DNA of 39,501 nucleotides from Minisyncoccota bacterium. Lineage in GTDB: Bacteria; Patescibacteriota; Minisyncoccia; Phycocordibacterales; PALSA-1337. The notes under the pieces were generated by a model, which was given only the letters and a program-made list of their open reading frames with translations, searched no databases and was not told where the DNA came from. The translations under genes were made by a program, and so were the position numbers. The stretch is from the NCBI GenBank assembly GCA_028713005.1, contig JAQTPC010000009.1, positions 1 to 39,501 of the forward strand, written 5' to 3'. Below, piece after piece: positions 2,598 through 34,727 of the stretch; position 1 is the stretch's first letter; each line of letters begins with the position of its first letter.

Positions 2598-2667
2598 GTT
2601 TACAATGAAAAATGCAAAATGAAAAGTTCTATCGCATGTAACTTTTAACTTTGCATTGTAAACTTTT
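2598..2667. repeat. Heptad-repeat spacer folding into an inverted repeat
   Basis: On the plus strand, 2601-2628 reads as four 7-mers (tacaatg, aaaaatg, caaaatg, aaaagtt) and 2640-2667 as four more (aactttt, aactttg, cattgta, aactttt). The two halves are partly inverted copies of each other: 2598-2607 pairs perfectly with 2654-2663, and aaaagtt at 2622-2628 pairs with aactttt at 2640-2646. The element fills the gap between smc and the HtrA-like gene. Confidence 0.75.
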
Positions 2668-2669
2668 CA

Positions 2670-4919
2670 CTATTTTGCTACCTTCACCGCTTCTTCGAAC
2701 TGTATAGAGAGGAGCTTCGATGCACCGTCGGCGCCCATAGTGACACCGTAGAGGACTCCAGCACGCGACATCGTCTCACGATTGTGGGTAATGAGGATAA
2801 GCTGAGAATGTTTTGAGAGATTCTCGATCATATCGCCATACTTTTTACTATTAGCTTCATCGAGTGCTGCATCTGTTTCATCGAGGATGATAAATGGGGG
2901 TGGATTGACTTGAGAGATAGCGAAGAGTAAAGCAATGGATGTGAGTGCACGCTCGCCACCAGAGAGCATCATGAGGCCTTTGACTTTTTTGCGAGGCAGA
3001 CTGACATTTACTTCGAGACCTTCGGGGCCGTCTTGTGATTCATTTGCGTCATTCGCGTCCATTTGTAGATTGGCATCGATTCCTCCTTCTAGCATATCAC
3101 CCAACTCTTCAGAGTCACCTTTCTTTCGACGCTTTGCTTCTTTGACTACTGTAAGCTCTGCATGACCGCCACCGAACATCAGTGAAAAATAGTTTGTGAA
3201 CTCTTTATTAATCTTCAGTATTCCCTGCTTGAACTCAATATCAATTCGCACATCCAATTCGGCAATGAGTTTATTTAGTTCATCTTTTGCCTTTTCCAAA
3301 TCAACAAGCTCCCGTGCGAGGAAGGCATCACGTTCTTCTGTTTCCTTATATTCTTTCATTATTTCAGCACCGCCGCCAGCACCCATGTCTTCTAGGCGGA
3401 TCTTCAATTTATCAATCTGGTGTTTCTTCTCAGCTTGCTCAGAGCGGTTTGAGGCATTTACAACTGCATCATACTGCGTGGCTTCACGTCCAACAATCAT
3501 CCCCGCTTCACCCAATTCTCTTTTGAACTCCGCTTCAGCAAAATCAATCTTTTGAATGTCTGCAGTCAAAGTACCAACGATATGTCGTACTTCATTTTGA
3601 CGTGCGATAATACGGAATACTTCCTTCTCGGCATCACGGTTCGTATCTTTCTCATGTTCGATCTTTTGCTTGAGAGCATTGTATTCGCTAACAATTTTCT
3701 TTTCAAAATCACCGAGAGTCATGCGCTTATGTTCAAAGTTACTTTTTTCAGCTGAAAGACGCACAATTTCTTTTTCCATTTCAGCGACGAACTGCGAATC
3801 ATTCGCAGAACGATGACCTTTGATAAAATTACGGAACGCATCGATGACTTCTTTCACTGTCTGAAATAATTCAGCTCTACTGATGACTTCCTCAACATCT
3901 TTGAGATACACAGTCTTGAATTCTTCCTGCTTCATTCTACTTTCCTCTTTCTCCTTTGCGCGTTTATTAGCATTTATCTCACCTTCGATACGACCAAGCT
4001 CACGCACCACAGTATCAGTCTCAGTGCGAGTTTCTGCCAGTTTCTTTTCAAGCGAAATTAGTTCATCACTGGTAACATCTTTATTTTTTGATGCAGTCAG
4101 AATTTCACGTGCTTTATTGAGTGCGTGTTCAAGATCAGACAGCTCTTTTTTTGGTCCAGCTATTTCACTATGCAGACGAGTTTTTTCAGTTGTAATATAA
4201 TACTCTTCCTGAGCAAAGTAGATTTTATATATTGAAATAAGCTCACGGCGCATCTCTTCGGCTTTTTCAACCTTTTCAACCTGCTTCTTCAAAAAACGTA
4301 AATGTGGCGCAATCTCTCGGCGAAGAGATTCCACTTGCTTCATATTCTCTTCAGTTCGCTCGAGTTTGCGGATACTTTCTAGTTTTTTCCACTGATATAT
4401 CTTAAGACCGAGCGCATCTTCTATCATTTCGCGACGTTCGCGAATACTCGCAGAGAGGATACGATCAGCCTCGCCCTGGGAGATGATATGGTGACCAGTT
4501 GCTCCTACATGAGCAGTAGCGAGAAGTTCGATAATATCCTTGAGACGTACTCCGGTACCATTCAATAGATATTCATTAGTGTTATCACGATGAACGATAC
4601 GCTCAATGGTCACTTCATCAAAATCAATCGATGCGAACATACGACTCGAATTGTCAAACGTAAGCTTTGCGCTTGCACGGTTGGCTCTACCTGAGTTTGA
4701 AGACCCTTCACCACCACCATTCCAGATCATATCCTCACCACGTTTACCACGAAGCGACTTGATAGATTGCTCGCCCAACACAAAACGAAATGCTTCAGCA
4801 GTGTTGGACTTGCCTGAGCCGTTCGGCCCAACAATACCAGTGATTGATGAAGTAAAATTGAGTGTTGCCTTTTTGGCAAATGATTTGAAGCCAGATAATT
4901 CGAGAGATTTCAGATGCAT
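2670..4919 (-). CDS. smc: Short SMC-type chromosome segregation ATPase without a recognisable hinge
   Basis: SMC proteins are ABC-type ATPases that dimerise through a hinge and organise the chromosome. Visible here are the N-terminal head with Walker A GPNGSGKSN (about 31-39) and the Q-loop region ending IISQGEADRIL. Then come coiled-coil segments (about 175-590) and a C-terminal head with signature LSGGERAL (about 652) and Walker B FIILDETDAALDE. At 749 residues it is far below the usual 1,100-1,200. The coils are short, and where the roughly 150-residue hinge should be there is only a brief break near residues 335-375. No Rad50 zinc hook (CxxC) is present. An acidic, Asn/Asp-rich insertion lies just before the signature motif. 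ScpA and ScpB are not in the window. The head domains make the SMC family certain; a Rad50- or RecN-like role is less likely. Confidence 0.88.
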   Translation of the reverse strand: MHLKSLELSGFKSFAKKATLNFTSSITGIVGPNGSGKSNTAEAFRFVLGEQSIKSLRGKRGEDMIWNGGGEGSSNSGRANRASAKLTFDNSSRMFASIDFDEVTIERIVHRDNTNEYLLNGTGVRLKDIIELLATAHVGATGHHIISQGEADRILSASIRERREMIEDALGLKIYQWKKLESIRKLERTEENMKQVESLRREIAPHLRFLKKQVEKVEKAEEMRRELISIYKIYFAQEEYYITTEKTRLHSEIAGPKKELSDLEHALNKAREILTASKNKDVTSDELISLEKKLAETRTETDTVVRELGRIEGEINANKRAKEKEESRMKQEEFKTVYLKDVEEVISRAELFQTVKEVIDAFRNFIKGHRSANDSQFVAEMEKEIVRLSAEKSNFEHKRMTLGDFEKKIVSEYNALKQKIEHEKDTNRDAEKEVFRIIARQNEVRHIVGTLTADIQKIDFAEAEFKRELGEAGMIVGREATQYDAVVNASNRSEQAEKKHQIDKLKIRLEDMGAGGGAEIMKEYKETEERDAFLARELVDLEKAKDELNKLIAELDVRIDIEFKQGILKINKEFTNYFSLMFGGGHAELTVVKEAKRRKKGDSEELGDMLEGGIDANLQMDANDANESQDGPEGLEVNVSLPRKKVKGLMMLSGGERALTSIALLFAISQVNPPPFIILDETDAALDEANSKKYGDMIENLSKHSQLILITHNRETMSRAGVLYGVTMGADGASKLLSIQFEEAVKVAK

Positions 4920-5294: not shown

Positions 5295-5993
5295 TTACCA
5301 CTTCTTAATTTCGAGTGCACTCTCAGCTGCCTTCTGTTCAGCTTCTTGTTTTGACTTTCCTTCACCAGTTGCAATCTGCACATCACCAAGAAATACAGCG
5401 AGGGTGAACTTTTTATCATGATCAGGCCCTGTCTCCTTGAGAGTTTTATACGAAGGAGTCACACCAGCTTTTTCTTGAGCCTTTTCTTGGAACATACTCT
5501 TTGCATCAATCCATGTTTTATTTTTTACAATTTCATCAATATCGATAATATTCAAAATATGTTCAGAGATAAAGTTTGCTGATGCATCATACCCACTATC
5601 CATGTAAATAGCACCGATGACTGCTTCGACAGCATTTGCGAGAATGATGGCGCGTGCACGACCTGTGTCTTTGGCTTCACCTTTTGAGAGAAGCATGTAT
5701 TCATTGAGACCAATTTTATCGCCTACTTTTGCCAAACTAACAGTATTCACGATAGCTGAACGAAAAGCAGTGAGCTCACCTTCTGCCTTTTTGGGAAATT
5801 TACGGAAAAGAAAACTTGTCACTACAAGCTCGAGTACGGCATCACCGAGAAATTCAAGGCGCTCATTGTGTTCGAGTCCTGATTCACGATTTTCATTGAT
5901 ATATGAGCGATGTGTACATGCAGTGCGCAAAAGAGCCATGTCATTGAATGTGACATTTATGTGCTCTGCCAAATTATCGAAATTTATCTTCAT
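5295..5993 (-). CDS. rnc: Ribonuclease III
   Basis: RNase III cleaves double-stranded RNA in rRNA and mRNA processing. The 232-residue protein has the catalytic domain with signature NERLEFLGDAVLE (about 43-55), including the metal-binding Glu and Asp, and the second acidic motif in VEAVIGAIYMD. A C-terminal double-stranded RNA-binding domain follows (about 160-232) with the expected GKSKQEAEQKAAESAL helix. The length is normal. It lies 45 nt downstream of nusB-nudix on the same strand, and a block of near-9-nt repeats fills that gap. All hallmark residues are present. Confidence 0.97.
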   Translation of the reverse strand: MKINFDNLAEHINVTFNDMALLRTACTHRSYINENRESGLEHNERLEFLGDAVLELVVTSFLFRKFPKKAEGELTAFRSAIVNTVSLAKVGDKIGLNEYMLLSKGEAKDTGRARAIILANAVEAVIGAIYMDSGYDASANFISEHILNIIDIDEIVKNKTWIDAKSMFQEKAQEKAGVTPSYKTLKETGPDHDKKFTLAVFLGDVQIATGEGKSKQEAEQKAAESALEIKKW

Positions 5994-6037
5994 ATTCGTA
6001 TTATTCGTTGTATTCGTGCGTATATGCGTAGATTCGT
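5994..6037. repeat. Degenerate repeat of ATTCGT with about 9-nt spacing
   Basis: ATTCGT occurs at 5994, 6003, 6012 and 6032, with a related ATGCGT at 6024. Three successive copies are exactly 9 nt apart. It fills the spacer between nusB-nudix and rnc. It resembles the heptad repeats elsewhere in the window but has a different period. Confidence 0.6.
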
Positions 6038-6038
6038 A

Positions 6039-6941
6039 TTACGCTTTTTCTTCACTCACAATAGTCACGGCCTTCGCTACTATTGGCAAGATATCATTAT
6101 AGAAATTGAGCTCAAGGATAGCGTCGAGCTTGAACCACTTTGCATCTGCTAGGCCTGGCTTCTTTGCGAGAGTGATCGTCTTAAAATCTGACTCTGCGAG
6201 ATAGTAGTGTACCTGCTTGCGGATCTTGCCGATCTCAGGATCATTGGCGATATATTCATTTTCACCAAGGTCTGCAATGATCTTTACTTCGAGACCGATC
6301 TCTTCCATGACTTTGTTGATAGTACCCTGCTTTGGATCGACTTCTGGAGGAATCTTACCTTTTGAGAGCGTCCAGTGACCAAACACATCGTATACGAAAG
6401 CCATGTAAACATCAGCACCATCACGAGCATATACCACTGCACCACCCAAGTGTTGGATTGGCATCTGCTCATATGGAACCTCAACTTTCTTTTTCTTTAT
6501 AGGCTGTGCATCTTTGCCTGGTTCACCGAGCTCCTTGTAGACAGCACCGAGAACACCGTTAACGAAACGGCCACTCGTCTCACCACCGAAGGTTTTTGCA
6601 AGTTCAATAGCTTCATTGATAGCTACTTTTGCTGGCACTTCCTCACGATCAGCAAAGAGAAGTTCGTAGAGACCGAGACGGAGAACGTTACGATCTATGG
6701 GCGAAATCTTATCGATCGGCCATTCAGGTGCAGCTTTTGAGATGATATCGTCAAGTTCACCATGTTTTGCAAGGATACCTTTCATAAGCTCATCCATGAA
6801 CGAAACATCAGCTACTCCTGGCGCAAACTCCTTTGCATCACGGGCAATGATAATAGACGATGTGGCGTCCTTTTTACCACAAAAATCCCACTCAAAAAGT
6901 GCCTGGAGGACTACTGAGCGTGATAAATGTCTATTTGCCAT
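6039..6941 (-). CDS. nusB: NusB antitermination factor fused to a Nudix-like domain
   Basis: Residues 1-140 are NusB, an RNA-binding helical protein that joins NusE in rRNA antitermination. Recognisable parts are SRSVVLQALFEWDF at the N-terminus and PIDRNVLRLGLYELLF and GRFVNGVLGAVYKEL in the second half. A lysine-rich linker (about 145-153) leads to a Nudix-fold domain (about 160-300) with TLSKGKIPP and NKVMEEIGLEV. In the Nudix box the usual Arg-Glu pair is Asn-Lys (about 209-210) and the first Glu is displaced, so hydrolase activity is doubtful. Normal NusB is about 140 residues, so this is a real fusion in one uninterrupted frame. It lies between rpmF and rnc. The N-terminal half is certain and the Nudix fold likely. 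Confidence 0.9.
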   Translation of the reverse strand: MANRHLSRSVVLQALFEWDFCGKKDATSSIIIARDAKEFAPGVADVSFMDELMKGILAKHGELDDIISKAAPEWPIDKISPIDRNVLRLGLYELLFADREEVPAKVAINEAIELAKTFGGETSGRFVNGVLGAVYKELGEPGKDAQPIKKKKVEVPYEQMPIQHLGGAVVYARDGADVYMAFVYDVFGHWTLSKGKIPPEVDPKQGTINKVMEEIGLEVKIIADLGENEYIANDPEIGKIRKQVHYYLAESDFKTITLAKKPGLADAKWFKLDAILELNFYNDILPIVAKAVTIVSEEKA

Positions 6942-6973
6942 GAGTTTATTTGAAGAACATTGTTACGATAACC

Positions 6974-7050
6974 TAATTTTAAATTCAAAATTCGAAACTT
7001 CAATCTTCAAACGCTACGCCTGAAATTTGATACTTGGAACTTGGAACTTA
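6974..7050. repeat. Eleven-unit degenerate heptanucleotide repeat between rpmF and nusB
   Basis: The plus strand splits cleanly into 7-mers: taatttt, aaattca, aaattcg, aaacttc, aatcttc, aaacgct, acgcctg, aaatttg, atacttg, gaacttg, gaactta. The consensus is roughly (A/G)AAYTTG. The last unit overlaps the rpmF stop codon. There is no sign of coding in this spacer. Confidence 0.85.
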
Positions 7051-7266
7051 TTTGGCTGCCTTTGCAACCTTTGCTGCTTTCTTTGTAGCAGCAACTGTAA
7101 GATCGAGGACCTTGCGGCCATTGTACCATCCACAATTCATACAGACTGCATGACTCTTGTGAGCAGCTTTACAGTTCTGGCAAACAGAAGTACGCGCTGC
7201 ATCGAGAGCATGATGAGAACGTCTATTGTCGCGATGAGCTCGCGTTGCACGCATTCGGTTTACCAT
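7048..7266 (-). CDS. rpmF: 50S ribosomal protein L32 (bL32)
   Basis: bL32 is a small zinc-ribbon protein of the large ribosomal subunit. The 72-residue product has the basic N-terminus RATRAHRDNRRSHHAL and two zinc-binding pairs, C-x2-C in VCQNCKAAH and C-x2-C in VCMNCGWYNG, as expected. The C-terminal tail is rich in Ala and Lys. It begins the leftward group rpmF, nusB, rnc. An AATACT or TAATAC box ends 6-7 nt before the ATG, as in other genes of the window. Confidence 0.95.
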   Translation of the reverse strand: MVNRMRATRAHRDNRRSHHALDAARTSVCQNCKAAHKSHAVCMNCGWYNGRKVLDLTVAATKKAAKVAKAAK

Positions 7267-20499: not shown

Positions 20500-20527
20500 T
20501 TTACTAATTTCTGATTACTTTCCAGCC
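20500..20527. repeat. Short heptad-repeat stretch
   Basis: Units tttacta, atttctg, attactt and tccagcc follow at 7-nt steps between the terminator and the stop of the minus-strand membrane protein. This is the weakest of the heptad blocks. Confidence 0.4.
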
Positions 20528-23522: not shown

Positions 23523-23550
23523 TTGGAAAACAGTAAACGGTAAACAGAAA
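23523..23550. repeat. Heptad repeat after the S1 gene
   Basis: Units ttggaaa, acagtaa, acggtaa and acagaaa follow in exact 7-nt register just after the S1 stop and run into the terminator stem. Confidence 0.65.
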
Positions 23551-23580
23551 AAGTCACCAGAGATGGTGGCTTTTTCTGTT
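23543..23580 (+). terminator. Long hairpin terminator of the S1 gene
   Basis: A 17-bp stem (AACAGAAAAAGTCACCA with TGGTGGCTTTTTCTGTT, one G-T wobble) encloses a GAGA loop. Its end overlaps the TATAAT (23580-23585) of the next gene. Confidence 0.9.
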
Positions 23581-24447: not shown

Positions 24448-24458
24448 GGAGACAAGTA

Positions 24459-24486
24459 TAAGGTAAAAAGGCAAAAGGCAAAAGTG
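24459..24486. repeat. Heptad repeat upstream of pth
   Basis: On the plus strand taaggta, aaaaggc, aaaaggc and aaaagtg follow in 7-nt register. It overlaps the pth promoter region. Confidence 0.6.
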
Positions 24487-28210: not shown

Positions 28211-28245
28211 TTTTTGCTTTTTAACTTTTGATTTTTGCTTTATCT
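28211..28245 (+). repeat. T-rich heptad repeat directly before ftsA
   Basis: Five 7-mers in register, tttttgc, tttttaa, cttttga, tttttgc, tttatct, end 2 nt before the ftsA ATG (28248). There is no Shine-Dalgarno. Confidence 0.75.
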
Positions 28246-29968: not shown

Positions 29969-29999
29969 CTTTTAACCCCTTTTAACTTTTAACTTACCT
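29969..29999 (+). repeat. T-rich heptad repeat directly before ftsZ
   Basis: Units cttttaa (29969-29975), cttttaa (29979-29985), cttttaa (29986-29992) and cttacct (29993-29999), with a 3-nt insertion after the first. It ends 2 nt before the ATG, as at ftsA. Confidence 0.65.
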
Positions 30000-34692: not shown

Positions 34693-34727
34693 TTTTTACC
34701 TTTTGAATTTTGCCTTTTTACTTTTAT
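34693..34727 (+). repeat. T-rich heptad repeat directly before tRNA-Glu
   Basis: Five 7-mers in register: tttttac, cttttga, attttgc, cttttta, cttttat. It ends 3 nt before the tRNA 5' end. The unit type is the same as before ftsA and ftsZ. Confidence 0.75.

Follow-up and report, generated by a model that had tools for sequence, protein, structure and literature searches.

Several intergenic spaces in a 39,501-nucleotide stretch of a Minisyncoccota genome (hereafter the window) hold degenerate repeats that keep a period of 7 nt while the repeated word varies, raising the question of how a period is kept without a fixed word and whether the repeats have any use. A few phyla have for decades been known to carry heptamer repeats, for which no explanation has gained acceptance; the degenerate form in Patescibacteria, which ordinary repeat finders miss and which keeps period and hairpin through the replacement of its words, offers a way to split mutational origin (slippage steps) from selected use (RNA pairing). 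The account that we favor, with some reserve, is that heptad arrays are born by slippage and that part of them serve as arms of intercistronic RNA hairpins.

Blocks of 7-nt period in the window and beyond

The window is contig 16 of a draft genome (G000; 840,691 bases in 29 contigs); genomes of the neighboring genus and order span 0.4–1.4 Mb. We examined 588 kb of G000, 388 kb of its nearest relative (G001, with genes approximately 70–83% identical to those of G000) and, from about 36 other genomes of the order, shorter stretches. Gene calls came from a simple program based on codon usage, so that spacer borders are approximate. Blocks were located by a local scan for runs in which a base equals the base k positions on (+1 per match, −1 per mismatch), and the best lag-7 score of each block's spacer was compared with 3000 dinucleotide shuffles of the same spacer. 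All eight blocks listed in a first-pass annotation were present at approximately the positions it gave, and each exceeded the shuffles of its own spacer (p ≤ 0.013). None of the 3000 shuffles reached the score of the blocks at 6974–7050, 23523–23550 or 24459–24486; the remaining blocks gave p = 0.0003 (28211–28245), 0.001 (2598–2667), 0.0013 (20500–20527, with a score of 9), 0.0017 (29969–29999) and 0.013 (34693–34727). In each of the eight spacers, lags 4–6 and 8–11 scored lower than lag 7.

The periodicity extends to other intergenic regions of the genome, where the annotation had staked its claim on an excess over dinucleotide-matched controls: spacers in the 588 kb of G000 held 19 lag-7 blocks with a score of at least 12, compared to 0.2 in shuffles (32 compared to 1.9 at score 10), and among the other lags from 3 to 24 the harmonic lag 14 gave 5 blocks and all others 0–3. 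Called genes (502 kb) held 9 lag-7 blocks, a density approximately 14-fold lower than in spacers, which bears out the intergenic preference; even there lag 7 stood above the other lags that are not multiples of 3 (5, 8, 10, 11 and 13: 0–1 blocks each). A mean autocorrelation over all intergenic DNA, which the annotation had proposed as a check, gave no peak at lag 7 (0.276, vs. 0.279 at lag 6 and 0.283 at lag 8), because the blocks are sparse, occupying about 50 of 555 spacers in G000 and G001; the 7-nt signal is visible to a local scan only, and not to an average over spacers. The strict register with degenerate units was confirmed, and TRF returned only 2–5 copies at 72–100% match. A preferred site just before an ATG or a tRNA was not borne out, the nearest gene edge being a stop or a start equally often (25:25); arrays do hug gene edges, at a median of 4.5 nt vs. 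8 nt if randomly placed.

The features of the window are collected in Table 1; the neighbors rpmF, nusB and tRNA-Glu named in the annotation were confirmed, and an Rfam search of the whole window at gathering score gave no match but four tRNAs. The blocks at 6974–7050 and 23528–23551 are kept in G001, the latter with two parallel A-to-G unit changes, and those at 24459–24486, 28211–28245 and 34693–34727 are missing, two of the three cleanly, with a G001 spacer about 55–60 nt shorter. The block at 2598–2667, mostly missing in G001, appears to resemble that at 6974–7050 in consisting of two inverted arrays around a non-periodic center. Beside the array at 23528–23551 there is a stem followed by a U-run, and the outer 5′ stem of this hairpin is the last heptad of the adjoining array.

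Table 1. Repeat arrays, hairpins and neighboring features of the window.
Feature	Coordinates	Strand	Remarks
Heptad array AATGAAA/AATGCAA with weaker inverted partner AACTTTT	2598..2667		between trypsin-like peptidase and SMC-like genes
nusB fused to NUDIX domain (neighbor)	6039..6941	-	Pfam PF01029 and PF00293
boxA-like element GTTCTTCAAAT	6948..6958	-	17 nt before nusB start codon; 2 mismatches to GYTCTTTAANA
Heptad array, + strand AAATTCA AAATTCG AAACTTC AATCTTC	6975..7010		lag-7 score 15
Hairpin of two inverted heptad arrays (putative)	6980..7050	-	score 22.5, z 6.6 vs. shuffles; fold −20.1 kcal/mol, z −2.5
Heptad array, + strand AAATTTG ATACTTG GAACTTG GAACTT	7021..7049		lag-7 score 14; inverted relative to 6975–7010
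rpmF, ribosomal protein L32 (neighbor)	7048..7254	-	Pfam PF01783
Weak heptad array	20500..20527		score 9
Heptad array AAACAGT AAACGGT AAACAGA	23528..23551	+	after rpsA-like gene (S1 domains); lag-7 score 11
Terminator-type hairpin, stem 23544–23558/23565–23579	23544..23579		fold z −4.7 with flanks; terminator scan
Heptad array AAAAGGC	24456..24484		divergent spacer, peptidyl-tRNA hydrolase side; score 14; absent in G001
Heptad array TTTTTGC/TTTTTAA	28211..28241		between ybeY and ftsA-like genes; cleanly absent in G001 (gene junction without spacer)
Weak heptad array CTTTTAA	29969..29999		before ftsZ; no array there in G001
Heptad array CTTTTGA/CTTTTTA	34693..34727		before tRNA-Glu; missing in G001 (spacer piece 59 vs. 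3 nt)

Two further repeats were seen in passing. The spacer at 5993–6038 of the window is filled by a degenerate repeat phased at 9 nt (TATTCGTAG), a second period besides 7. A dispersed repeat of about 36 nt with internal units of 8–9 nt (ATCGATGCAAATTACAAATGATCGCGAATGACGCGAATA) lies at 3030–3090, inside the SMC-like gene; it has 9 matches in the 588 kb of G000, in both spacers and genes (further sites: L018:3922, L018:5132, L032:456, L037:14089, L040:11752, L040:14550 and L040:14972), 5 in 120 kb of G021 and none in G001.

Inverted arrays between rpmF and nusB

The block between rpmF and nusB had been described as eleven consecutive 7-mers of one consensus; the 7-nt units stand, and the single word gives way to two inverted arrays around a non-periodic center. 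On the rpmF-to-nusB transcript strand these would form a hairpin with a 5′ arm at 7050–7017, which takes in the rpmF stop codon, a loop at 7016–7014 and a 3′ arm at 7013–6980. Within the arrays, TTAAATTCAAAATTCGAAACTTCAA (6975–7010) and CTTGGAACTTGGAACTT (7021–7049) are identical in G001. A scan of 6900–7110 for Rho-independent terminators found none.

We compared this spacer in all relatives in which rpmF and nusB are adjacent and parsable. A lag-7 array at p < 0.05 was present in 16 of 24 such spacers, vs. 6 of 192 tests at other lags. The words differ from genome to genome: TTGAAGT/GGAACTT in G000, TTGGAAA in G021 and G015, ATTTAGA in G003, G007 and G022, TTGAATC in G020 and G018, and GATTTAA in G011 and G012. 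The suggestion that conservation applies to the period and not to any one word thus holds for the same spacer among relatives. In 17 genus members the spacer is long enough for a hairpin; among these, the best ungapped hairpin had z > 2 against shuffles in 16 (2.3 to 12.5) and z > 2.5 in 15. Arms from the same genome pair at a mean score of 19.8 and arms from different genomes at 10.1, a comparison that favors own over cross scores by construction, the arms having been chosen for self-pairing. On the transcript strand, G·T pairs outnumber A·C mismatches 87:24, and the excess holds when arm composition is corrected for (p = 0.0005) and when shuffled spacers serve as the reference (p = 0.00003), p-values which, like the others at this spacer, overstate the case since genomes of one genus are not independent. 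As G·T is good in the sense-strand RNA and A·C would be good on the other strand, this asymmetry argues for selection on the sense RNA. RNAfold z-scores here are moderate (median −1.6; 10 of 24 below −2). In G013 the spacer (L283) carries a hairpin whose period is 9 nt (CTAATTGAC) and not 7; the hairpin is therefore kept more strictly than the period, and a period of 7 is not required.

Together these observations suggest that the rpmF–nusB RNA hairpin is under selection. Since it is kept through the genus while the words are replaced, selection would most likely act on RNA pairing and not on a protein-bound word. After a 7-nt slip, a periodic arm could pair again one unit on, whereby the hairpin would survive the change of letters. 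Candidate roles for the pairing are protection of the mRNA 3′ end, processing, or control of the nusB leader; that arrays or hairpins affect expression at all is something we infer. If the hairpin reading is true, tandem repeats would be one means for a structured RNA to keep its shape while its sequence changes, and covariance-based searches would for that reason overlook such elements.

The spacer also holds a boxA-like element (Table 1). NusB/NusE binds boxA RNA. Regulation of Nus-factor genes through boxA is established for suhB and has been proposed for nusE as well as, via ribH, for nusB in Pseudomonas (PMC5725501). In most relatives (L274–L296) GYTCTTTMA stands at −13 to −17 of nusB, and the consensus GYTCTTTAANA (PMC5725501) is matched with one mismatch in 10 of 25 and with two in 8 of 25, at nearly the same position. 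Autoregulation of nusB by NusB via this element is possible, and such a placement of boxA, immediately upstream of nusB, would be new to the literature that we checked. More tentatively, and with considerable doubt, the hairpin of sliding heptad arms and the boxA-like element might together make up a leader through which NusB would control its own synthesis. A 16S gene, whose leader would show the host boxA, was not among the assembled sequence of G000; a short 16S rRNA-like fragment (L326, G000:C22:87479–87596; model positions 108–309) lies beside a DNA-polymerase-like gene.

Inverted pairing is not confined to this spacer. We searched for a reverse-complement match within 110 nt of each array (score of at least 12), using the complement alone as control, and found a partner for 25 of 116 arrays, about a fifth, compared to 4 of 116 in the control; about 80% of arrays are without a detected partner. 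In tandem spacers of G000 and G001, a hairpin with z > 3 occurred in 10 of the 26 that hold an array and in 24 of the 212 that hold none (Fisher p = 0.001). At yebC–ruvC, array and hairpin are present in some genus members only (G000, G001 and G011) and absent in others. A substantial minority of arrays are arranged as inverted pairs and probably form hairpin arms in the transcript between co-transcribed genes.

Known heptanucleotide repeats and the spread of the arrays

The annotation knew of no described family like this one. Heptanucleotide simple repeats have in fact been described in Cyanobacteria, Bacteroidetes, Beggiatoaceae and Xanthomonas (PMC4679880, PMC4692102); for Patescibacteria we found none described in the literature. 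Intergenic heptanucleotide repeats are thus already known as a kind, and what is new here is their inverted pairing into hairpins. The TAACTGA direct repeats of marine Beggiatoaceae, Cyanobacteria and Bacteroidetes (MacGregor 2015, PMC4679880) are likewise 7-nt tandem and intergenic, lie beside gene edges including those of housekeeping genes, and use related words, AGTTATC, a rotation of the TAACTGA reverse complement, being close to AGTAATC. In that system, however, a single word prevails over rare related ones, whereas G000 arrays have degenerate units and many words, with no single dominant TAACTGA; the repeats are mostly oriented toward the start codon, whereas G000 words occur in both orientations without a rule and are not set forward before starts (25:25); and one indirect repeat was reported, whereas inverted pairs are common in G000.

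The heptanucleotide STRR/LSSR of Cyanobacteria (Mrazek 2007 as cited in PMC4679880, PMC4692102) share with our arrays a 7-nt unit enriched above other lengths and a mainly intergenic position, and slippage has been proposed for them; as far as these secondary accounts go, the searches count near-perfect copies, whereas G000 copies are short, degenerate and 60–80% alike. GGGAATC (Xanthomonas) and GGGGATT (Nostoc) repeats are also heptameric, heterogeneous and intergenic, with inverted arrangements mentioned, but are G-rich with G-quadruplex potential (PMC4692102), whereas G000 arrays are A/T-rich. REP/BIME palindromes are intercistronic inverted repeats at transcript ends too; the G000 hairpins differ in having no conserved core sequence and in being built of heptads.

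Within the order, 20-kb samples of 34 further genomes contained at least one lag-7 block in 17, with densities from 0 to 60 per 100 kb; other lags of the non-coding type gave about 0.2 per genome. No block was found in 50 kb of E. coli K-12. The exact 21-mer (AGTAAAC)3 occurs at more than 116 places in over a dozen phyla among the matches listed, including Cyanobacteria, Bacteroidota, Planctomycetota, Acidobacteriota, Chloroflexota and Patescibacteria. A related 16-mer was present in 33 of 287 genomes of the phylum vs. about 19 for a reversed control word, so that much of its thin background may be chance; it is clustered, with counts from 0 to 18 per genome (18 matches in G233, 14 in G000). 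A universal heptad grammar, R-G-N-N-A-N-Y, was considered and rejected: genus profiles misfit the order's other genomes (z −0.4 and 0.1), and the good match with loci from other phyla is biased, those loci having been fetched with AGTAAAC.

Birth and turnover of arrays

The match rate between units falls with their distance (0.72, 0.64, 0.60, 0.55 and 0.51 at lags 7, 14, 21, 28 and 35), as predicted by stepwise duplication and mutation. Among orthologous spacers of G000 and G001 (n = 83), G001 has an array in 7 of 14 with an array in G000 vs. 7 of 71 (Fisher p = 0.006 at score 9); of these seven shared spacers, some carry the same word, and in the rest the word is another one or the array is oriented along the opposite strand. 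An AGTAAAC/AGTAATC array at an orthologous site of seven Microcystis genomes varies in length by 7, 14 or 35 nt, its units having been homogenized within each genome, and repeat indels between two Cyanothece strains are mostly in 7-nt increments (MacGregor 2015, PMC4679880). These steps and the decay between units are the trace expected of slippage or unequal exchange. We infer a slippage-type birth and turnover, for the G000 lineage by analogy, the 7-nt steps having been seen in Cyanobacteria. Arrays would originate as tandem heptanucleotide repeats of the long-simple-sequence-repeat kind, renewed in 7-nt steps by DNA slippage or unequal exchange and tolerated mainly between genes, while units drift and are partly homogenized and whole arrays come and go.

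Arrays also lie inside genes at a lower rate. For example, at one site shared by orthologous tgt-like genes, G000 and G001 carry heptad arrays built from different words (L016:3256–3283 and L195:16843–16868); arrays can thus grow in coding sequence too.

The persistence of arrays at orthologous spacers (7 of 14), the register kept while units vary and the closeness to gene edges would also be expected of protein binding sites read in 7-nt register, on DNA or on RNA (S1, cold-shock protein or a CsrA-like protein; MacGregor suggested S1, Csp and CsrA for the TAACTGA repeats that precede start codons, PMC4679880). We judge this decidedly unlikely, as the arrays keep neither a set orientation nor a set distance to starts (25 stop and 25 start edges), the words of other genomes of the order misfit the genus profile, and several arrays are cleanly absent in G001. 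Turnover, arrays within genes, unit decay and 7-nt steps would equally suit neutral slippage debris without function anywhere, the rpmF–nusB spacer being merely an old hot spot; this too is improbable to us, given that a hairpin with changed arms persists there in 16 of 17 genus members and that G·T exceeds A·C on the transcript strand. Slippage-born arrays of which part are used as hairpin arms remain our preferred reading.

A Y-family polymerase, DinB (PF00817), was suggested as the array maker by five genomes and rejected with 34 (16 blocks in 319 kb of DinB-positive vs. 26 blocks in 322 kb of DinB-negative genomes). Loss of MutS is a candidate cause: in a small sample, the protein is missing from the four genus genomes examined and occurs in one genome free of arrays, yet some array-poor genomes also lack it. 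The MutS ATPase domain (PF00488) was not found in G000, G001, G002, G021, G028, G030, G033 and G038, and was found in G025 of the same order.

AGTAAAC-like arrays make up about a quarter of G000 arrays, the commonest word among many, and AGTAAAC dominates unlinked G000 loci, which counts against plain slippage, as that predicts no such dominance. Arrays could instead be what is left of a dispersed element, either mobile or gene-converted, given the recurrence of AGTAAAC in many unlinked spacers, the very uneven counts per genome (0 to 18), the exact (AGTAAAC)3 in over a dozen phyla and a link between Microcystis arrays and a dispersed repeat; with no conserved flank beyond the array seen in G000 and other words used as well, we consider such an origin very improbable. 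The Microcystis dispersed repeat contains AACTTAAAACTTACATCTGATAACTGATAACTG, and heptad arrays are linked to it in the seven genomes, each with more than 50 copies (L073:3597–3769).
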